A stretch of 40,102 nucleotides of DNA from a virus, in IMG/VR virus record IMGVR_UViG_3300008952_000116, positions 1-40,102 of that record, one strand, 5' to 3'. Position 1 is the first letter of the stretch; every line of letters starts with the position of its first letter. Shown here piece by piece: positions 1-29,273 of the stretch. Under the pieces are notes generated by a model, which searched no databases, had not been told where the DNA came from, and saw only the letters and a list, made by a program, of their open reading frames with translations. The translations under genes and the position numbers were made by a program.

Positions 1-148
1 GTTTGACCCTATTGAAGGTAACGACGAGCTGAGAGTTCCAGCTAATATAGCGGGAAGTGCAGCAAATCCAGATGAAGGTGGTAGACCTGAACAGGAGGAA
101 GAAGAACCTTCCTTACCGCCAATAGAAGCAGAGGTAGAAGATGTCTAG
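1..148 (+). CDS. Portal protein, C-terminal end (partial)
   Basis: An open frame enters from the left edge (first full codon at base 2) and ends at TAG 146-148, giving 49 residues. It contains VPANIAGSAANPDEGG followed by an acidic, Pro/Glu-rich tail. This resembles the disordered C-terminus of HK97/lambda-type portal proteins, which form the dodecameric DNA-entry vertex. The position just before the prohead protease and capsid gene fits a portal. The catalytic or structural core lies outside the window, so the call rests on the tail motif and gene order only. The next gene starts inside its last codons. Confidence 0.6.
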   Translation, partial: FDPIEGNDELRVPANIAGSAANPDEGGRPEQEEEEPSLPPIEAEVEDV

Positions 149-476
149 CATACAACGAAGAAAAATGACAAAAGCTTTGGCCGAATATTATATAGAGAAG
201 GGTAAGGTTTTCGACTCTTCTGTAGAGTATAGTAGACAAAACGATGCTCCATATACGATCAAAGAAATCAAGAAAGTAATGGGGGGCTGGAGTATGTGTT
301 TTAGATATATTCGTACTGAATACCCCAATATTGATGAAGATATTAAAAAAGCAAAGAGGAAGGACAGAGGAAATTTATTTAAGGATAAACCTGATTTTCC
401 TAAATCAAGAATTCCCTCGACTCCTAAGCCCGATAAGATAACTCTTACTACGGGACGGAATGAAACGAATGAATAA
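141..476 (+). CDS. Small basic protein of unknown function between portal and protease
   Basis: This 111-residue protein starts at ATG 141, inside the portal stop region, with GAGG at 131-134 six bases upstream. It is Lys/Arg-rich, with a predicted helical N-terminal half (residues 1-60) and a disordered, Pro/Lys-rich C-terminus (about residues 80-111). The motif YTIKEIKKVMGGWSMCFRYI could be a small helical DNA- or protein-binding unit, but I do not recognise the family. Its place between portal and maturation protease suggests a role in head assembly or packaging; that is inference from position. Its last bases overlap the next gene. Confidence 0.7.
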   Translation: MSSIQRRKMTKALAEYYIEKGKVFDSSVEYSRQNDAPYTIKEIKKVMGGWSMCFRYIRTEYPNIDEDIKKAKRKDRGNLFKDKPDFPKSRIPSTPKPDKITLTTGRNETNE

Positions 477-2484
477 AATTTTTAATTTAACTTCCACTTT
501 TAAATCTTCTCCTGAAGATGATGGCAGCGTTAAGATACGCGGCATGGCCAGCACTTCAGATTTTGATAGAGCTGGCGACAGTATTAAGCCAGATGCTTGG
601 GGTAAAGGTGGTTTAAATAATTTTAAAAAGAATCCTATTATTCTTTTTAATCACGACTACGACCGTCCTATCGGTCGTGCTACAGGTCTCGATGTAACAG
701 ATAATGGTCTGGCACTAGAGGCAAAAATTAGTAAGTCAGCGCCCGCAGGGGTCTGCGACTTAGTTAAGGATGGCGTTCTTGGAGCATTTTCTGTTGGTTT
801 CCGAGTCAAGGATGCCGATTATATCGAGGAAACTGACGGACTTATGATAAAGGACGCTGAATTGTTTGAGGTATCGGTAGTTTCCGTACCTTGCAATCAG
901 GCAGCTACTTTTTCTTTAGCGAAATCGTTTGACTCTATGGAAGAGTACAATGATTTCAAGAAAACTTTCACAAATCGTGTAGATCTAGCCGGTCAGTCTC
1001 TGGCTAATGAAGATGAGAGATCATCTAGCGTAGCTAGTAATACACCGGTAAGGGCGGAGAAATCCGTGCAAAAGGAGATCGTAATGTCGGAAGATAAAAC
1101 TCCCGAAATCGACTTGGAAGCATTTGCAAAGCAAGTGGCAGAACAAACTGCTACTAATATTGCAATGAAGCAAGCCGAGCAAAAAGCTGTGGAGAAAGCT
1201 GAAGCCGAAAAGGTAGAAGCTGCCGAAGCAGAAAAGGTCAAGCAAGAAGAGGAGGTCAAGACTGCTATTCAGGTAGGAGTTGAGACTGGTGCTGAAAGGC
1301 TTGTCAAAGATGTAGAAGCTAAGCTCGCAGAAAAGGATGTTGAAATTGAGGAAGTTCTCAAGCAGCATAAATCTGATCTTGAAGAGAAGAAGGAAGAAAT
1401 TTCCCGCCTTCAGGAATCTAAGCGAGTTTTCGCAAATCGTGGCGACGGTGATATTTCTAAGTGGGGCAAAGAGTTTCTTTACGCTTCAGTTCTAGGTAAA
1501 ATCACTGGTAAAGGTTGGAATACCGACTATGCCCAAGATGTCATGACCAAAGCAGGCGTTACTTATGATGCCTCAACTGGTATCGGTCTGGATGCAAGCG
1601 TGTCGGCTACTTTCGAAGAAGAAGTCCGACTCGAGCAAAAGGTTGCTGGTCTCTTTAGAGATATGGCAGTCAATTCAGGTGCTACAGTGTTGCCTGTCCT
1701 TCCAGATACAGAAGATGCCAACTGGAATGCAACTGGTCTAGAAACCACTGCTAATCTCTTGGAAGAGAAAGGTGCGAGCGATAATAACTACAACGTTAAT
1801 CGTGTCACACTAAATGCCTATCGTTTGATTTCTGGTACATTTATCGCAAACGATACTGACGAGCAAATCGTTGTTAATGTTCTTCCTTGGATTTTATCAG
1901 CTCTAGCTCGTGCACACGCTCGCGCTATTGATGGTTCAATCATGAATGGCACAGCTAACCAAGCAGGTCTGATTGGTGGAGCAGGTACCGATGGTGCAGG
2001 TTCTTTCCTAGCTTCAGACTCTACTGGTGTTACTGATATCGCAAATGATGGTTCAGGTGCACTAACTGGTGCTAACTTACTGTCCATCCGTTCTGAAATG
2101 GGTAAATATGGGGTTAGCCCTGGAGACGTTGCATACATTGTCAACGTTGAAGAGTATTTCAACCTAATTGCAGATGCTGCGTTCTCAGACGTGTCAGAAG
2201 TTGGTAGTGATATCGCAATGAAGGTAGTTGGTCAAGTTGGGTCTATCTACGGCTCACCAGTTGTAGCTAGTGACCAATTCTCACGTGCAACTACTAAAAC
2301 AGCAGCTTGCGCAGTCAACGTTCATAACTATGTAATGCCTAAGTTACGTGGTGTTAATATTGAAACTGACTACGAAGTAGCAGGTCAGCGTACCGCAGTT
2401 GTCGCTTCACAATCCAGAGGATTTGAAGAGTTAGTTGCAGGTGCTGGTGCAGATCAGCCCGCTGTTAGAATTGAATACGCCTAA
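460..2484 (+). CDS. HK97-type prohead protease fused to scaffold and major capsid protein
   Basis: One 674-residue frame carries three parts. Residues 1-185 form a U35-family prohead protease: IILFNHDYDRPIGR supplies the catalytic His65 and GAFSVGFR the catalytic Ser111. Residues 210-320 are Glu/Lys/Ala-rich coiled coil, like the HK97 delta (scaffold) domain. Residues 325-674 are an HK97-fold major capsid protein. In most relatives the protease and capsid are separate genes. Maturation probably cuts around residues 320-326, releasing the capsid; this is inferred. Starts at Met1 (460) and Met4 (469) both overlap the previous stop and neither has a strong Shine-Dalgarno. A strong internal start lies at Met209 (see separate entry). 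A terminator follows. Confidence 0.9.
   Translation: MKRMNKIFNLTSTFKSSPEDDGSVKIRGMASTSDFDRAGDSIKPDAWGKGGLNNFKKNPIILFNHDYDRPIGRATGLDVTDNGLALEAKISKSAPAGVCDLVKDGVLGAFSVGFRVKDADYIEETDGLMIKDAELFEVSVVSVPCNQAATFSLAKSFDSMEEYNDFKKTFTNRVDLAGQSLANEDERSSSVASNTPVRAEKSVQKEIVMSEDKTPEIDLEAFAKQVAEQTATNIAMKQAEQKAVEKAEAEKVEAAEAEKVKQEEEVKTAIQVGVETGAERLVKDVEAKLAEKDVEIEEVLKQHKSDLEEKKEEISRLQESKRVFANRGDGDISKWGKEFLYASVLGKITGKGWNTDYAQDVMTKAGVTYDASTGIGLDASVSATFEEEVRLEQKVAGLFRDMAVNSGATVLPVLPDTEDANWNATGLETTANLLEEKGASDNNYNVNRVTLNAYRLISGTFIANDTDEQIVVNVLPWILSALARAHARAIDGSIMNGTANQAGLIGGAGTDGAGSFLASDSTGVTDIANDGSGALTGANLLSIRSEMGKYGVSPGDVAYIVNVEEYFNLIADAAFSDVSEVGSDIAMKVVGQVGSIYGSPVVASDQFSRATTKTAACAVNVHNYVMPKLRGVNIETDYEVAGQRTAVVASQSRGFEELVAGAGADQPAVRIEYA
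1072..1086 (+). promoter_or_regulatory. Internal ribosome binding site and in-frame ATG within the protease-capsid ORF
   Basis: AAGGAG at 1072-1077 sits six bases before ATG 1084-1086, which is in frame with the 460 start (codon 209). The Shine-Dalgarno match is stronger than that of the gene's own start. It lies exactly at the junction between the protease linker and the acidic coiled coil, where a separate capsid gene would begin. Confidence 0.7.
1084..2484 (+). CDS. Predicted internal-start product: scaffold domain plus major capsid protein
   Basis: Translation from the internal ATG 1084 would give a 466-residue protein starting MSEDKTPEIDLEAFAKQVAE. It would contain the coiled-coil scaffold domain (about 110 residues) and the full HK97-fold capsid domain, without the protease. 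A capsid is needed in hundreds of copies while the protease is needed in few. A dual-start gene would therefore supply mostly protease-free capsid plus a minority of fused protease that co-assembles through the shared capsid region. The same logic is known from lambda C/Nu3 nesting. The ribosome binding site is seen directly; use of the start is inferred. Confidence 0.55.
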   Translation: MSEDKTPEIDLEAFAKQVAEQTATNIAMKQAEQKAVEKAEAEKVEAAEAEKVKQEEEVKTAIQVGVETGAERLVKDVEAKLAEKDVEIEEVLKQHKSDLEEKKEEISRLQESKRVFANRGDGDISKWGKEFLYASVLGKITGKGWNTDYAQDVMTKAGVTYDASTGIGLDASVSATFEEEVRLEQKVAGLFRDMAVNSGATVLPVLPDTEDANWNATGLETTANLLEEKGASDNNYNVNRVTLNAYRLISGTFIANDTDEQIVVNVLPWILSALARAHARAIDGSIMNGTANQAGLIGGAGTDGAGSFLASDSTGVTDIANDGSGALTGANLLSIRSEMGKYGVSPGDVAYIVNVEEYFNLIADAAFSDVSEVGSDIAMKVVGQVGSIYGSPVVASDQFSRATTKTAACAVNVHNYVMPKLRGVNIETDYEVAGQRTAVVASQSRGFEELVAGAGADQPAVRIEYA

Positions 2485-2504: not shown

Positions 2505-2541
2505 CCTTGTGGGGAGGGCTTTGGCCTTCCCCCAGGTTTTT
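2505..2541 (+). terminator. Rho-independent terminator after the capsid gene
   Basis: A GC-rich hairpin pairs GGGGAGGGC (2511-2519) with GCCTTCCCC (2524-2532), with one G-T wobble and the loop TTTG. It can be extended downward by CCT/AGG pairs. TTTTT (2537-2541) follows. This probably isolates high capsid expression, with partial read-through to the connector genes. Confidence 0.75.
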
Positions 2542-11272: not shown

Positions 11273-12312
11273 CAGAATTAATAGAACTAGTTCAGAAGGA
11301 GACACCTGGAAGCGAGGTAGTAAGGCTATTTGAGTTAACTTTTAATAGCACTACTTTGTACTTCCATCCTGGATTAGATGAAAATTTAGCCAAACTTTAT
11401 TTTGAAGATGCTACAACCCCTTTTAAAATCAGAGAATATGAACCTTTCCCAATAGAAATGACGGGAATAGAATTTAGTGCAGACGGGGCAACTAATAGAC
11501 CCACTCTTACAGTAGCTAATGTAACTTCTCAATTTAGTAATTTATTAGGGGGTTTAACTAATGAGGATTTAATTGGGGCAACTATTGTTGTTCGAGAAAC
11601 ACTGGCAAAGTATTTAGAGACTTCCACAACATATAATAATAACTCAGGCAATGGTGCTCTCCCAATAGAGTTTCCAAAAAAGAAATTCATTATAGATAGA
11701 CTAGCTGGTGAAAATGCTCTAGCTATAACTTTTGAACTAAGTTCCCCTTATGATTTAGAGAATATCCAGCTCCCTAGAAGAGCTTTGATAGGGAAATATT
11801 GTAGCTGGATATATCAAGGACACCATAAAGGGCTTGGGGGTGGATGCAATTGGAAAGCAGATAGTACTATAGATTATGCTAGCGGTACTAGTAATGAGCT
11901 AAACTCACACAAAGCCTATTTTGACGATGAGGATAACCCTATAGTTAATGATAATTCAGGGCAATCTCAATTATCAGATACTGTAGCTGCGGGGTGGACA
12001 GATGCTAAAGGGTATAAAACTTATAGTAATTCTGTCGCTATAGTTAAGGGTAATTACTATGAACATAACAATACTGTATGGAAAGCAGCGCAAGCTCAGT
12101 CAACAACGGGCAGCAGTCAAGTAGCTCCTGAAGCTAATTCGGCTTATTGGATGAGAGGGGACGTATGCGGAAAAATGTTATCCTCTTGTAAGTGTAGATT
12201 TCAATTTGTTCCCCACACTAAAGGTAATACTAATTCTTATCCCAAAACAGATAAAAATTTAGACGCAAGTCTTCCTTTTGGCTCATTTATAGGAACTAGA
12301 AAGTTTAGATGA
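11269..12312 (+). CDS. Minor tail protein (lambda gpL-like) with an inserted carbohydrate-binding-like domain
   Basis: This 347-residue protein overlaps gpM by ATGA. Residues 1-200 match gpL (VVRLFELTF, IEMTGIEFSADG.TNRPTLTVAN in sense, and LPRRALIGKYCSWIYQG). Cys178, Cys193, Cys300, Cys307 and Cys309 provide four ligands for the [4Fe-4S] cluster known in lambda gpL. The C-terminal LPFGSFIGTRKFR is also typical. Lambda gpL has 232 residues; the extra length lies between Cys193 and Cys300. There, VAIVKGNYYEHNNTVWKAAQ...PEANSAYW resembles the CBM5/12 chitin/glycan-binding fold. This may be a glycan-binding decoration at the tail tip. Confidence 0.85.
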   Translation: MTELIELVQKETPGSEVVRLFELTFNSTTLYFHPGLDENLAKLYFEDATTPFKIREYEPFPIEMTGIEFSADGATNRPTLTVANVTSQFSNLLGGLTNEDLIGATIVVRETLAKYLETSTTYNNNSGNGALPIEFPKKKFIIDRLAGENALAITFELSSPYDLENIQLPRRALIGKYCSWIYQGHHKGLGGGCNWKADSTIDYASGTSNELNSHKAYFDDEDNPIVNDNSGQSQLSDTVAAGWTDAKGYKTYSNSVAIVKGNYYEHNNTVWKAAQAQSTTGSSQVAPEANSAYWMRGDVCGKMLSSCKCRFQFVPHTKGNTNSYPKTDKNLDASLPFGSFIGTRKFR

Positions 12313-13007
12313 TAAAACATTTAAGTGAAATTGAAGAACACTTTAAAGATTGTTACCCTAAAGAAGGTTGTGGAATAGTTGGAGTTGTAAAGGGTAAATC
12401 AAAATGGTTTCCTTGTGAAAATCTAGCAGAAGAGGAAGAACATTTTGTAATGAATCCAGAGGATTTTAACAGAATTAATGCAACTAGTGATATTATTGGA
12501 ATAGTACATAATCATATACATAGCAGTCCGGAGCCGAGTTTAAATGATATAAAACATTGTAATGTTATGGGAATACCTTATTATATTTTTAGTTACCCTA
12601 ATATGGAACTGGAAATATTAAAACCTAAAACAGTAATTAATAAACTGGCGGGGCGAGAATATGAATTTGGAATATTTGATTGTTTAGAGGCTGTAAGAGA
12701 TTTTTACAGCCAAAAACTCAATATAGAATTAAGAAGAAGAGAAGCATACTTAGATGATTGGTGGGAAAAAGGAGAAGATTATTTTACGGCTGAACACATT
12801 AAAGAATGGGGATTTAAGCCTGTAAATGATTTAAAAGAAAACGATATTCTCATTTTCACTATGGGAGCGAGTATAGGCACACATTGTGGTGTGTATTTAT
12901 ATGATGATATATTTTATCATCATGCAGTAAATAGATTATCTTGTAAAGAGAATCTATATCCTTTATGGAAAAAGCACTTAACTGGAATATATAGATATGA
13001 CACGTAA
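12309..13007 (+). CDS. Tail tip assembly protease/peptidoglycan hydrolase (lambda gpK-like, JAMM + NlpC/P60)
   Basis: This 232-residue protein starts in ATGA overlap with gpL. Residues 1-105 form a JAMM/MPN metallopeptidase: Glu19 in PKEGCG and the full motif HNHIHSSPEPSLND (His67, His69, Ser77, Asp80) are present. Residues 110-232 are an NlpC/P60 domain with catalytic Cys124 (FDCLEAVRDFY) and His192 (GTHCGVYLY). This is the domain order of lambda gpK. The NlpC part is expected to cleave stem peptides of peptidoglycan, either in tail-tip assembly or during DNA entry. The next gene overlaps by 11 bases. Confidence 0.92.
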   Translation: MIKHLSEIEEHFKDCYPKEGCGIVGVVKGKSKWFPCENLAEEEEHFVMNPEDFNRINATSDIIGIVHNHIHSSPEPSLNDIKHCNVMGIPYYIFSYPNMELEILKPKTVINKLAGREYEFGIFDCLEAVRDFYSQKLNIELRRREAYLDDWWEKGEDYFTAEHIKEWGFKPVNDLKENDILIFTMGASIGTHCGVYLYDDIFYHHAVNRLSCKENLYPLWKKHLTGIYRYDT

Positions 13008-23934: not shown

Positions 23935-24405
23935 ATGGCGCAAACAATTAAGCTCAAGAGGTCGGCATCCTCTGGGGCAGAGCCCAGCACGTCTGATCTT
24001 GCCTTAGGTGAACTTGCATTAAACACCTATGACGGCAAGGTATACATGAAGAAAAATGATGGTACTGAGTCTATTGTAGAGATCGGACAAAGTGGTAGTG
24101 TCTATACAAAAACTACTGTTACTGCGACAGCGAATCAAACAACAGTTACTGGGCTTACTTATACCGCTGGACTTGTGGACGTATATCTTAACGGAGTTAA
24201 ACTAGTAGTGGGACAAGATGTAACCGCCACTAATGGAACTAGTATTGTGTTAGCTGCAGGGGCAGCTGTAAATGATATTATACAAATAGTTGCATTTGCA
24301 TCTCAAGGTAGTTTTAATCAACATATTATTAAAGCAGATGGTGGAAGTGCTACTTCAACTTATACAGCGGCACAAACTATAAACGGAGGCGATGCTAATG
24401 GCTGA
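23935..24405 (+). CDS. Short tail fibre/attachment protein B
   Basis: This 156-residue protein has GGAGAG upstream of ATG 23935. Residues 1-45 carry the shared attachment module (TIKLKRSASSGAEPSTSDLA, GELALNTYDGKVYMK). Residues 55-120 form a beta domain with YTAGLVDVYLNGVKLVVGQD, a motif of phage fibre distal or collar domains. It ends shortly after, so it looks like an attachment module with one small domain. The 5' third is richer in GC than the surrounding genes, suggesting a different origin. It overlaps the next gene by 8 bases from the chosen start. Confidence 0.65.
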   Translation: MAQTIKLKRSASSGAEPSTSDLALGELALNTYDGKVYMKKNDGTESIVEIGQSGSVYTKTTVTATANQTTVTGLTYTAGLVDVYLNGVKLVVGQDVTATNGTSIVLAAGAAVNDIIQIVAFASQGSFNQHIIKADGGSATSTYTAAQTINGGDANG

Positions 24406-26401
24406 TGTCATACAAATTAGACGAGATACTGCCGCTTTATGGACTAATTCTAATCCTGTTCTAGCCTCTGGTGAGTTTGGGTACGAAACTGATACTACAA
24501 AGATTAAAATAGGGGACGGTTCGACAGCTTGGACGTCTCTTGGGTACTATACTCTAGGAACTCTAGGGTACGCACCTTTAGCAAGCCCTACATTTACAGG
24601 AGCAGTAAACGCTAGTGGAACTTTACAAATTGCTGGTACAACAATTACGTCAACAGCAGCAGAATTAAATATACTAGATGGAGTTACCAGTACAGCAGCA
24701 GAATTAAATATATTAGACGGGGTTACAGCTACTGCAGCAGAGTTAAACCATACAGATGGAGTTACGTCTAATATACAAACTCAGATTGATGCTTTACCTG
24801 TTCCAAAAATCACAGCAACAGCTTCAGGTGCTATAGCCAATGGAAAACCTGTAATTGTTAATACTAATGGTACTGTAAGTGTTCCTACAGGAACTTCTGC
24901 ACTTGAGGGATTAAATACAAATTCAACTGCGCACACAGATCAAGCTGGTGGAACTACAGGATATGCACATATTGGCGATATAGCTTATGACACTACAAAT
25001 AATGTGTACTGCATAGTCTACAATGATTACGGGGATACTTATAAAATCACAGCTAAAGTGGCAACTTTTAGTGGGTCTGCTTGGACATTTGGAAGTGAAG
25101 TCGTTATAGGTGAATACGGTTATGCTGGGGGAGCTTCAGTAGTTTTTAATCCTGATACTTCGCAATTTGTTATTCAATTTGTTGAGGGTCAAACTCCTTC
25201 TAATGGCTCAGGGCATTTAAGAGCTAGAGTAGCGACTGTAACGGGTACAGGCTCTGGTGCGAGTCTTACTTTAGGCAGTATTGTCGATATAGATAATAGA
25301 GCTAATGTATCAAATGGGGCAGTGTCAGATCCCACTTGGATTACTTATGATACTAATGCAAATAGAACTATTAGTATATGGACTTGTAGACCTAGTTCAG
25401 GAGTGAATAGTGGGGAAGGAAGATTAAGAATAGGTACTGTAAGTGGTACAGGTACTAACGCAACTATTTCTTTTGGGAGCACTCAAACATTTCATGCTAA
25501 CAGCACTAATATAGAAAGAAGACCAATAGTTTTTGACCCTGATACTAATAATTTTCATATAATATATCAGGATTATTCAGGAGGAGAGTACATGAAGTCT
25601 ATTTCAGGTACTGTAGATTCTTCTGATAATTCGGCAGATCTTGGAAGTGAAGTTGCAATGTCTGCTAGTCCAGAAATTAAAGGACAGCCCAGCGGTTTAG
25701 TTTATGATACTCATAATAATAAAGTAGTAGCGTGTGTTTTCAATGATGATGCAAATGATATTTTAGAAGGTTATGTAGGGACTGCAAGTGGTACAGGCAA
25801 TAGTGCAACTATTTCATGGGGCGCGGGCGGTTCGATTACTTCTTCTGCCACTACAAAAGGACACAGTACCATGGTTTATGATGAAACGGCTAAGCAAGTT
25901 GTTGTTTTTTATAAAGATAGTGCAGGTAATCAATTTGCAAAACTTATAGTAGGAACTGTATCAGGAACTTCTGTTTCGTTTGGAAATGGAGGAACCCATG
26001 GAAATACTGCCTCGCCAGGTACAGCACTTACGGTTATATCAGGAGGGGGCGCTATGGAATACCCGACTGGGTGTTTTGATCCTGATCAGAACACTGTTAC
26101 GTTTCATTATGTAGATGAATTAATGAATCCTTCTGAGGGTGCAGTGGTTGCTTGGACTACTGGGTATTTTGATTCAACTCTAACTGCTGAGAATTATATT
26201 GGTATAGCAGATGCAGCATATTCAGATGGCGCTGCAACAACAGTTCAAATTGCCGGAGCAGTAGATGATGCCCAATCTTCTCTAACTGCAGGACAAAAAT
26301 ATTATGTACAGGCAGACGGAACTTTAGGGTTAACAGCAGCTTCGGTATCAGTATTTGCCGGAACAGCTATATCGGCAACGAAACTTATAGTGAAGGGATA
26401 A
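24398..26401 (+). CDS. Tail fibre protein C with a predicted seven-bladed beta-propeller
   Basis: I place the start at ATG 24398 (667 residues): GGAGG (24385-24389) is 8 bases upstream but only 2 from ATG 24392, and the paralogue downstream also starts MAD. Residues 1-60 are the attachment module (IQIRRDTAALWTNSNPVLAS, STAWTSLGYYTLGT). Three 13-residue LDGVT repeats follow. Seven copies of a YD...N..hhhY.D...hhVGTVSG unit, spaced 51-66 residues (near nt 24985, 25142, 25340, 25528, 25700, 25870, 26070), suggest a seven-bladed propeller adhesin. The C-terminus (ENYIGIADAAYSDGAA ... KLIVKG) matches the next gene's. Confidence 0.75.
   Translation: MADVIQIRRDTAALWTNSNPVLASGEFGYETDTTKIKIGDGSTAWTSLGYYTLGTLGYAPLASPTFTGAVNASGTLQIAGTTITSTAAELNILDGVTSTAAELNILDGVTATAAELNHTDGVTSNIQTQIDALPVPKITATASGAIANGKPVIVNTNGTVSVPTGTSALEGLNTNSTAHTDQAGGTTGYAHIGDIAYDTTNNVYCIVYNDYGDTYKITAKVATFSGSAWTFGSEVVIGEYGYAGGASVVFNPDTSQFVIQFVEGQTPSNGSGHLRARVATVTGTGSGASLTLGSIVDIDNRANVSNGAVSDPTWITYDTNANRTISIWTCRPSSGVNSGEGRLRIGTVSGTGTNATISFGSTQTFHANSTNIERRPIVFDPDTNNFHIIYQDYSGGEYMKSISGTVDSSDNSADLGSEVAMSASPEIKGQPSGLVYDTHNNKVVACVFNDDANDILEGYVGTASGTGNSATISWGAGGSITSSATTKGHSTMVYDETAKQVVVFYKDSAGNQFAKLIVGTVSGTSVSFGNGGTHGNTASPGTALTVISGGGAMEYPTGCFDPDQNTVTFHYVDELMNPSEGAVVAWTTGYFDSTLTAENYIGIADAAYSDGAATTVQIAGAVDDAQSSLTAGQKYYVQADGTLGLTAASVSVFAGTAISATKLIVKG
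24650..24780 (+). repeat. LDGVT repeat cluster, fibre C
   Basis: Three tandem 39-base units encode TAAELNILDGVTS-type repeats. Identical or near-identical units occur in the next two fibre genes. Confidence 0.85.
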
Positions 26402-26402
26402 C

Positions 26403-28373
26403 ATGGCAGATAAAATTCAAATAAGAAGAGATACTGCATCTAACTGGACTAGTGTAAATCCTACGCTGGCATCAGGTGAAATTGGTTTTGAAACTGACAC
26501 TACGAAATTAAAAGTAGGTACAGGTTCAACAGCTTGGACATCTCTTGGCTACTATACTCTAGGAACAACAGGATATGCGGCTTTAGCCGGAGCAACTTTT
26601 ACTGGGGCTGTATCCGGAACAAATTTTACTGGGTCTGGTACAGTTACCGGAGCAACAGTTACCGGAACAACAGTTAATGCTAGTACTCAGTTACAAATAG
26701 GTGGTACAGCTATTACTGCAAGTGCTGCAGAACTTAATTATGTAGACGGGGTTACTTCCAATATACAAACACAGATAAATGGAATTTTACCAAGCCAAAG
26801 TGGGCAATCAGGACAATTTTTAACAACTAATGGAACTGCTGCTGATTGGACAGCTGTTCCAGCTCCAACACTAACAGCGACAGCAGATGGTGCAATAACA
26901 GCTGGCAGGGCGTGTAAAATAAATGCGAGTGGTTCAGTTTCACAAATCGGAAGCACAGCACTAGGTATAAATGATCATATACTAAAAGCTTATCCAACTC
27001 AATCTTGGGACACAAAAGATTATAGCTATGGGGTCTCAAACCATACTCCTCATACTATAACAACGTTGGGAATGTGCTATGACAATCACAGAGATCAATT
27101 TGTAGTTGTAGGATTTGATACCGCCTATGTTAAATGCTATTATATGATAGTAGGTCAAATTAAACATGGAGTTGTACTCTGGCAACGTCCTTTAAAAATA
27201 TTGGAATCTGAACACCAGAATGGCTATAGTGGTCAGAATAATAATAGTAGAGCAATGTGGTATGATGAAGATAATGATAGAATAATGATGCTGGAGTGCC
27301 CTAGCAACACGGATAAAATGGCTTTTGGATTACCTCAAGACGATGGGGGTTATTGGTGGGGGTCTTGGGTAAGTGAAGGTATCCCGAATGTAACCGAATA
27401 TTTTGGACAAGCAGAATTTTTTAACACTGAAGGTATTGCTTTAGGAACAAAAGGTGATAAATTAGAAGTAATATGTACCACTTTTTCAAAAGATCATAGA
27501 TATAATAATACAAGCGGCGATGCTGAAATTACTCAAAGATCAAGACAAGTTCATGTTAATAGTCAACCTCAATGGTCAACTAGTTCCACAGCTAATTTTG
27601 CTCTTGATAGAACAAATGGAGAAGTATGTACAGCCGGAAATCCGGGCGGATCTGATAGTGAATGGCACGTTTCTTTAGTTGAATTAGGTACAGATAAAAG
27701 TCAAAGTCCTACTCTATTATATAATTCAGGGCAGGGTACTTCAGGTGATAAAGATTATTTAAAAGTTTGGTATTTAGCCCCTAAAAAATATTTATTAACT
27801 TATCAAAATTCAAGTAATAAAGCAGAGGCTCAAGTTCTTACTTTTTCTGGCTCTACGCCTACTTATCATACTGCACAGCAGATGAATACTCAAGATGCAT
27901 ATAATACATGGTGTGTTCCATTAAAAGATGGAAGAATATATGTTAGATGGTACCATAATTCGGCTTTTTTAACTTTAGATAATAGTAATAATATTACTGT
28001 AGGAACGGTTAGAGTTGATAGTACTACTGATTTTAGTTATACAATGCTTGGAGCTAATCAGCCTGATTATAACTATGGATATTCTCCTGTTTCAGATGTA
28101 GCAGTTGCTTTTAATTATGAAGGGAATGGGGAGGCCAGAGGATTTTCAACTACAACTGCACACGCAGACACTTATATAGGTCTTGCTCAAGGCACAGTTT
28201 CAAATGGAGCACAGGCAACAATAGATATAGTAGGCGCAGTTAATGGTCAACAATCTGGACAAACTACAGGTAAAAAATATTATGTACATCATGACGGTAC
28301 TTTAGGGACTGAATACTCCTCTGTTTATGCAGGTTTAAGTACCACAGCTAATAATATAATAGTAAAGGGGTGA
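26403..28373 (+). CDS. Tail fibre protein D, paralogue of C
   Basis: This 656-residue protein starts one base after fibre C. Its first 65 residues match C closely (KIQIRRDTASNWTSVNPTLA, and the identical STAWTSLGYYTLGT), with near-identical DNA around 26525-26570. One LDGVT unit (near 26720-26760) and the linker GQFLTTNGTAADWTAV follow. The last 70 residues again match C (TYIGLAQGTVSNGAQA, IIVKG). The middle (about residues 180-580) differs, with propeller-like units such as GMCYDNHRDQFVVVGFD and AMWYDEDNDRIMMLE. C and D thus share ends but have different adhesive centres. Confidence 0.75.
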   Translation: MADKIQIRRDTASNWTSVNPTLASGEIGFETDTTKLKVGTGSTAWTSLGYYTLGTTGYAALAGATFTGAVSGTNFTGSGTVTGATVTGTTVNASTQLQIGGTAITASAAELNYVDGVTSNIQTQINGILPSQSGQSGQFLTTNGTAADWTAVPAPTLTATADGAITAGRACKINASGSVSQIGSTALGINDHILKAYPTQSWDTKDYSYGVSNHTPHTITTLGMCYDNHRDQFVVVGFDTAYVKCYYMIVGQIKHGVVLWQRPLKILESEHQNGYSGQNNNSRAMWYDEDNDRIMMLECPSNTDKMAFGLPQDDGGYWWGSWVSEGIPNVTEYFGQAEFFNTEGIALGTKGDKLEVICTTFSKDHRYNNTSGDAEITQRSRQVHVNSQPQWSTSSTANFALDRTNGEVCTAGNPGGSDSEWHVSLVELGTDKSQSPTLLYNSGQGTSGDKDYLKVWYLAPKKYLLTYQNSSNKAEAQVLTFSGSTPTYHTAQQMNTQDAYNTWCVPLKDGRIYVRWYHNSAFLTLDNSNNITVGTVRVDSTTDFSYTMLGANQPDYNYGYSPVSDVAVAFNYEGNGEARGFSTTTAHADTYIGLAQGTVSNGAQATIDIVGAVNGQQSGQTTGKKYYVHHDGTLGTEYSSVYAGLSTTANNIIVKG

Positions 28374-28376
28374 TAA

Positions 28377-29273
28377 ATGACTAGAGCAAGAGATTTAGCA
28401 GACAGCGGTCTAGTAATAAATAGTTTAGACAATCTAAATACCACCCTAACGGGCGCAGAATTAAGTGTTTTAGATGGTATAACTGCAACTACTGCTGAAT
28501 TAAATATATTAGATGGAGTCACATCAACCGCAGTAGAAATAAATTTATTGGATGGAGTAACAGCTACTACAGCAGAACTTAATTATGTAGATGGAGTTAC
28601 TTCTAATATTCAAACTCAGCTTAATACTAAGTCTCCTACTGCATCTCCAACATTTACAGGAACAGCAACAGCGCCTACAATTAATGCTAGTACAGCGCTA
28701 CAGATCGGGGGACAAGCAATTACTTCTACTCCGGCTGAGTTAAATTTACTAGACGGAGTGACGGCTACTACAACAGAAATTAATTACTTAGATGGAGTTA
28801 CTTCTGATATTCAGCCTCAAATAGACGCTGCTGCACAATCTGGTGGAAGCGGAGGAGATGTTGCAGCTTATAAAGTGACCACTACATTTACAGCACCAGT
28901 ATATTTTAAGAAAGTGGATATCATACCAAATGGAATAACAGTAGCAGGAACTTGGGAACTGTTTGCAGATGCACAACTTTTTGTTTCCGAACTCACTACT
29001 ATTGCTAGTAATGGGGAATACTTAACTGCAACTGAATCTAAAAGTAACCATCTTTTTTATGGAACTGCTTATGTTGGAGATAGCGCTACGGTAACTGTAA
29101 CGAATACAATGCAAGGACTAGGAGACGCAGACTCAGGATCAAGTCTTGCTAGAACAGATTTTAGTGCAACAGACGCAGGGGGCCTAGGCTCTTTTTCATA
29201 TAATAGTACAACAGGAGCTTATACTTACACAGGGCCTAGTTTGGGTAAGGTAATGTTTTTAGGGGGAATATAA
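28377..29273 (+). CDS. Tail fibre shaft protein E with LDGVT repeats
   Basis: This 298-residue protein has AGGGG upstream of ATG 28377. After a short start (TRARDLADSGLVINSLDNLN), six 13-residue units occur in two blocks (about residues 25-82 and 117-145). They are joined by a KSPTASPTFTGTATAPTINA linker. The C-terminal part has a small beta domain (VAGTWELFADAQLFVSE) and ends with LGSFSYNSTTGAYTYTGPSL, a segment also present in fibre A. It lacks the attachment module of A-D. It probably forms a fibre shaft or collar. Confidence 0.65.
   Translation: MTRARDLADSGLVINSLDNLNTTLTGAELSVLDGITATTAELNILDGVTSTAVEINLLDGVTATTAELNYVDGVTSNIQTQLNTKSPTASPTFTGTATAPTINASTALQIGGQAITSTPAELNLLDGVTATTTEINYLDGVTSDIQPQIDAAAQSGGSGGDVAAYKVTTTFTAPVYFKKVDIIPNGITVAGTWELFADAQLFVSELTTIASNGEYLTATESKSNHLFYGTAYVGDSATVTVTNTMQGLGDADSGSSLARTDFSATDAGGLGSFSYNSTTGAYTYTGPSLGKVMFLGGI
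28450..28815 (+). repeat. LDGVT repeat cluster, fibre E
   Basis: Six 39-base units occur in two blocks (28455-28610 and 28726-28810), encoding T-x-A-E-L/I-N-x-L/V-D-G-V-T-S/A. They share long DNA identity with units in genes C and D, so they could support recombination among fibre genes. Confidence 0.85.

Follow-up and report, generated by a model that had tools for sequence, protein, structure and literature searches.

The head gene of this marine, uncultured phage joins a prohead protease, a scaffold and a capsid protein in one reading frame, and the question it raises is whether such a gene yields one protein or two. The window, i.e. the whole 40.1-kb stretch of DNA analysed here, is the IMG/VR virus record IMGVR_UViG_3300008952_000116, and the head-gene parts described below, from the upstream ORF at 141 to the terminator-like hairpin ending at 2532, lie on its + strand. 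Neighbouring genes include those for a head-tail adaptor, a tail terminator, a major tail protein and a tape measure and, further, a ribonucleotide reductase, an exonuclease and an SbcD-like nuclease, predicted functions that fit a T5-like siphophage. Two side observations concern the tail region: three consecutive tail-type ORFs at 24392-29273 have common AELNILDGVT-like repeats, which suggests duplicated fibre-type genes, and at 12309-13007, flanked by the genes for a minor tail protein and for a tail protein of 2512 aa, a 232-aa protein is encoded that looks like a peptidase for tail assembly, with Mov34-like and NlpC-like halves.

A gene for protease, scaffold and capsid

The fusion frame spans 460..2484 (674 aa) in the ORF list. 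Pfam places a Peptidase_S78 domain at residues 33-161 (556..942; E 7e-15) and a Phage_capsid match at residues 383-634 (E 5.8e-5, slightly under the curated cut-off), residues 5-639 align to PHROG 617 'major head protein', and the family profile run against the PDB finds the T5-like capsid precursor 8ho3_A (E 9.7e-50, query 238-661 on chain positions 26-443). These results confirm the sequence-only reading, which had described a 674-residue frame joining a protease with His65 and Ser111 to scaffold and capsid. Both residues are invariant in 16 diverse relatives and line up with their counterparts in the T5-type protease. The N-terminal domain is accordingly a Peptidase S78 prohead protease, with catalysis predicted, and the C-terminal part an HK97-fold major capsid protein of the T5 type. 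The region at 1111..1440 is taken as the scaffold, or delta, region of the capsid precursor by analogy with T5 and HK97, and a low-confidence model predicts it to be helical or coiled-coil; the AlphaFold2 model, built from a family alignment of 16 sequences, is poor, with a mean pLDDT of 48. The window contig holds one S78 protease, and the capsid gene has a single match per contig in 8 related contigs of up to 72.9 kb, all of them incomplete.

T5-type phages (Shigella phage SSP1 and Vibrio phage Pontus; Demerecviridae) carry the same protease and capsid precursor in the same order, but as separate genes of 210 and 458 aa, divided by a stop codon and a gap of 7-17 nt, whereas in the window the two are fused. 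The N-terminal 208 residues show 51% identity over 156 residues with the protease of Shigella phage SSP1, and from codon 209 on the protein matches the SSP1 capsid. As judged from these sequences, the simplest history would be that the protease stop codon was lost while the ribosome site of the capsid gene was retained. In HK97 an S78 protease, gp4, acts beside a capsid protein, gp5, with a delta domain; these are again two separate genes, whereas the window places a similar S78 and delta-capsid logic in one ORF. It should be noted that in Aeromonas phages Akh-2 and AhSzq-1 the protease and capsid genes are annotated in fragments, in what are apparently frameshifted records.

Concerning the immediate surroundings, an upstream ORF (141..476, from the ORF list) overlaps the start of the fusion by 17 nt, which may allow translational coupling, and a sequence scan places a terminator-like hairpin with a T tract at 2511..2532, directly 3' of the capsid gene. 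Of the two candidate first codons, the ATG at 469 (M4) recurs in 31 of 32 representatives and the one at 460 (M1) is not conserved, so the true first start is likely M4.

The internal start at codon 209

A Shine-Dalgarno AAGGAG at 1072..1077 precedes, with a 6-nt spacer, an in-frame ATG (1084-1086, codon 209) at the domain junction, confirming what had been noticed in the letters alone. The internal frame (1084..2484) encodes a delta-capsid product of 466 aa, close to the 458 aa of the T5 capsid precursor, and in length and domains it corresponds to a separate T5-like capsid gene. The sequence-only reading had asked whether the site matches a separate capsid start.

That reading had also staked its claim on the AAGGAG-ATG being kept in relatives that retain the fusion, and it is kept. 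Relatives were collected from viral contigs (80), by a second query, which added more, and from genome contigs (9), and 146 distinct genes were counted. All 146 have ATG at codon 209, and 145 have GAG at codon 206, while GAG makes up 36% of the Glu codons of these genes. Codon 205 is CAG in 82, AAG in 51, GAG in 10 and TTG in 3, i.e. the residue changes among Gln, Lys, Glu and Leu yet the third base is always G; hence it is the nucleotides that are kept and not the residue. Departures from AGGAG number four, three of them TTGGAG and the other AAGGAA. The fusion and an in-frame start at the junction occur together in all full-length relatives whose frame is intact. The site is found as well in each of the 8 relatives from the genome collection that are more divergent (44-62% identity) and span the full junction, and in one relative at only 32% identity; the divergent relative L174 has the weaker AAGGA. 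The linker 5' of the site varies in sequence and in length, by a 60-nt indel, whereas the AGGAG-ATG is constant. By these counts the pair is conserved far more than expected by chance.

A conserved in-frame ribosome site at a domain junction, as seen here, is what the nested genes C and Nu3 of lambda would lead one to look for, where an in-frame internal start within the protease ORF gives a protease-free product with a common C-terminus. The likeness has its bounds, since in lambda the internal product is scaffold only and the protease is of the S49 type, whereas the window has an S78 protease and its internal product is the delta-capsid precursor in full. The lambda arrangement goes back to Shaw and Murialdo 1980, as cited in PMC8508860.

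How much of each protein would be made is another matter. In the window the internal Shine-Dalgarno is the stronger (-8.7 kcal/mol against -4.0 or -6.9 for the first site), as the sequence-only reading had it, but this order does not hold across all relatives: in 32 representatives the first site ranges from -3.0 to -12.5 and the internal one from -7.4 to -9.7 kcal/mol, so that in some the first site equals or exceeds the internal one. The part of the earlier proposal by which one mRNA gives two products is strongly supported by the conserved site and the capsid-equivalent product, while the excess of capsids over fusions that it foresees cannot be taken as established, and the fusion to capsid ratio cannot be read from Shine-Dalgarno strengths.

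A conserved RNA at the junction

Codons 171-220 show 2.1-4.3 synonymous changes per codon against a gene mean of 13.5, a 3-6-fold drop. The window segment 955-1100 has a folding energy of -43.3 kcal/mol (z -4.87), and this fold, together with inspection of the relatives, gave a five-helix model (P1-P5) for an element at 961..1080, present in full in long-form relatives. The sequence-only reading had overlooked this RNA. In P1 the GAUCU at 982..986 could pair with AGAUC at 1076-1080, covering the end of the Shine-Dalgarno. P2 (990..993 with 1044-1047) shows a swap from C-G to A-U at synonymous sites (42 CG, 25 AU, 2 other). P3 (CUGGCUA, 1000..1006, with 1031-1037) is nearly invariant and includes a fixed G-U pair, P4 (1012..1016 with 1021-1025) covaries, and P5 is a GCGGA-GAAA-UCCGU hairpin (1054..1067) directly 5' of the Shine-Dalgarno, in which all five pairs have changed on both sides, the stem being preserved across lineages despite the sequence change.

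In 69 distinct long-form sequences 98.2% of the cells of the model are paired, compared with 24-45% in slid controls; 8 pairs show two-sided changes, with 85 such cells, and none of 500 shuffles reached as high. On a tree that used the capsid part alone, 41 of the mapped changes were double and kept pairing, 7 were single and 14 led to or from the unpaired state. When all 2,988 variable column pairs were scanned exhaustively, a check that is independent of how the model was chosen, the four top-ranking pairs all belonged to the model. The base pairs thus covary beyond what phylogeny alone would give, pointing to a structured RNA. P1 is uninformative in this respect because its strands are mostly invariant, and, as the sole helix that touches the Shine-Dalgarno, it stays an unproven candidate pairing. 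Short-form relatives, without the 60-nt insert, lack P1-P4 and keep a small hairpin and P5; the full structure is therefore not essential to the arrangement. Rfam gave no family match for the junction RNA, returning a chance-level hit (E 0.31) far below the cut-off.

Concerning the effect on initiation, 13 of 15 representatives open the stretch from Shine-Dalgarno to ATG at a lower free-energy cost than their synonymous randomisations do (mean z about -0.9, the sequences being related), and masking the upstream sequence barely alters this cost. The lower cost mildly favours an RNA that presents the internal site rather than hiding it.

Synonymous change is also low at codons 101-140 and 231-240. 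Within the protease part, 11 of 14 relatives show a better fold at 760-855 (codons 101-132) than their synonymous controls, and at 1084-1190 (codons 209-241) the low synonymous change extends into the start of the capsid, where a hairpin is predicted that has no covariation support. Neither is claimed as an RNA: at 772-855 the pair-keeping changes are mostly one-sided, with one double change, which makes a structure possible, and at 1113-1179 there are zero double changes and more breaks. Antisense ORFs at 993-1259 and 1021-1368 were rejected as the cause of the constraint, as the constrained stretch does not track them.

Two probable products and the alternatives

The fusion, the conserved internal site, the equivalence to a stand-alone capsid gene and the RNA pairing are read from the sequence, and they lead us to hold, with good confidence, that the gene is two nested genes, for a fusion and a plain capsid precursor, and that the conserved RNA would set or protect internal initiation. 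Ribosomes initiating near 460/469 would make the protease-delta-capsid fusion and others, initiating at ATG 1084, the protease-free T5-type precursor of 466 aa; from the sequence evidence it is very likely that both are made. Their common delta-capsid part would let them co-assemble, bringing the protease into the prohead with no need of a separate protease gene. The sequence-only reading would have the protease held in the shell by its own capsid part; a cut between delta and capsid, of the kind made in HK97 and T5, would instead free a protease-delta piece and leave an ordinary mature subunit, so that all mature subunits would be identical. The folded RNA 5' of the internal Shine-Dalgarno would most likely act by keeping the flanking coding sequence paired with itself, such that the ribosome site stays usable.

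A different role for the RNA would be that of a switch, in which P1 hides the internal start until a translating ribosome opens the structure, tying capsid output to passage over the protease. P1 pairing in the minimum free energy fold of the window does overlap the Shine-Dalgarno, its strands are almost invariant and synonymous constraint 5' of the site is strong, but opening the site is usually cheaper than in synonymous controls and upstream masking makes little difference; moreover P1 shows no covariation and its GAUCU strand is missing in short-form relatives, so that we see this as a tentative and rather unlikely reading. Of similarly speculative standing is the idea that the RNA senses the state of assembly, through binding of capsid, delta or protease or through ribosome passage, and so tunes the fusion to capsid ratio. 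It seems distinctly unlikely that the junction RNA mainly slows or diverts elongation, by a pause, drop-off or frameshift to a close-by stop that frees protease or cuts fusion output and leaves the internal start secondary. The stretch AAAACTTTCA, just 5' of the structure, is invariant in 32 representatives and stops in the other frames follow soon 3' of it; however, the chief conserved feature by the ATG is a good Shine-Dalgarno, which needs no such role, and the codon 5' of AAAACTTTCA varies between AAG and AAA. A -1 frameshift there was rejected, since no canonical slippery heptamer lies in frame.

The conservation could also belong to DNA, i.e. to a site for recombination, packaging or replication, or a promoter. 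Nucleotide conservation is indeed very high, with a mostly invariant core 25-mer, yet one G-U pair is fixed in P3 and G-U states occur in P5, as befits RNA, and matches to promoters within the protease part, sought as candidates, are at chance level. The core is found in the same gene context in 113 of 114 matches (the remaining one is cut by a contig end), on which ground a mobile element was rejected, and a DNA site of any of these kinds is very improbable. We give hardly any credence to a single polyprotein, by which all capsid would come from cut fusion and the AGGAG-ATG would be a by-product of protein sequence or of ancestry. Virtually every relative does keep the fused frame open, and cleavage in cis by the protease is conceivable, but the conservation is at nucleotide level while residue 205 changes, each capsid subunit would bring a protease domain into the prohead, and the same layout recurs in an unrelated family, that of Pseudomonas phage PAJU2, whose split relatives start their capsid at this region.

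Fusions of prohead protease and capsid are already known, from PAJU2, where the gene carries the annotation 'prohead protease fused capsid protein', and from Microbacterium EE/EL, Arthrobacter AM/AU/AN and Rhodococcus RRH1 phages (PMC7302621, PMC5513430). All place the protease and an HK97-type capsid in one ORF, as the window does, EE adding the scaffold. The passages found in these papers make no mention of an internal start for the Microbacterium and Arthrobacter fusions, and in the open-access literature we found no report of one in such fusions. As far as that literature shows, the internal start within a conserved RNA structure is new; fusion and internal start each belong to known kinds, and what is novel is that they occur together with an RNA, supported by covariation, at that start. 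Many tailed phages have a fused gene annotated as one protein, and if the capsid comes from a nested start these annotations misname the main virion protein. The limited number of proteases per prohead would then be simply explained, the protease being carried by a minority of subunits, and the RNA would offer a testable handle on ratio control in a structural gene. Were it to sense assembly, it would be a case of an RNA-controlled internal start within a phage structural gene.

Among the fused families compared, the junction RNA is found only in that of the window, while the conserved internal start has its counterpart in the PAJU2 family. There, the ATG at codon 197 is kept in 54 of 57 intact frames; its median Shine-Dalgarno energy is -10.8, while the remaining conserved Met codons give -2.5 to -7.6. 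Of the seven members with in-frame stops, 6 carry the capsid as an ORF of its own further downstream, 465-474 aa long and starting near the homologous point, the internal product of PAJU2 itself being 471 aa. In one split relative (L207) a TAGGAGG overlaps the stop just 5' of the capsid start; L209 is apparently frame-disrupted. Candidate internal starts in the actinophage EL and EE fusions are suggestive only. A terminator-like GC stem with a T tract lies between the split protease and capsid genes of the PAJU2-family member L202 (3640-3715), and a similar T-rich remnant, seemingly translated in the fused frame, is seen 5' of the internal start in L201, L206 and L247.
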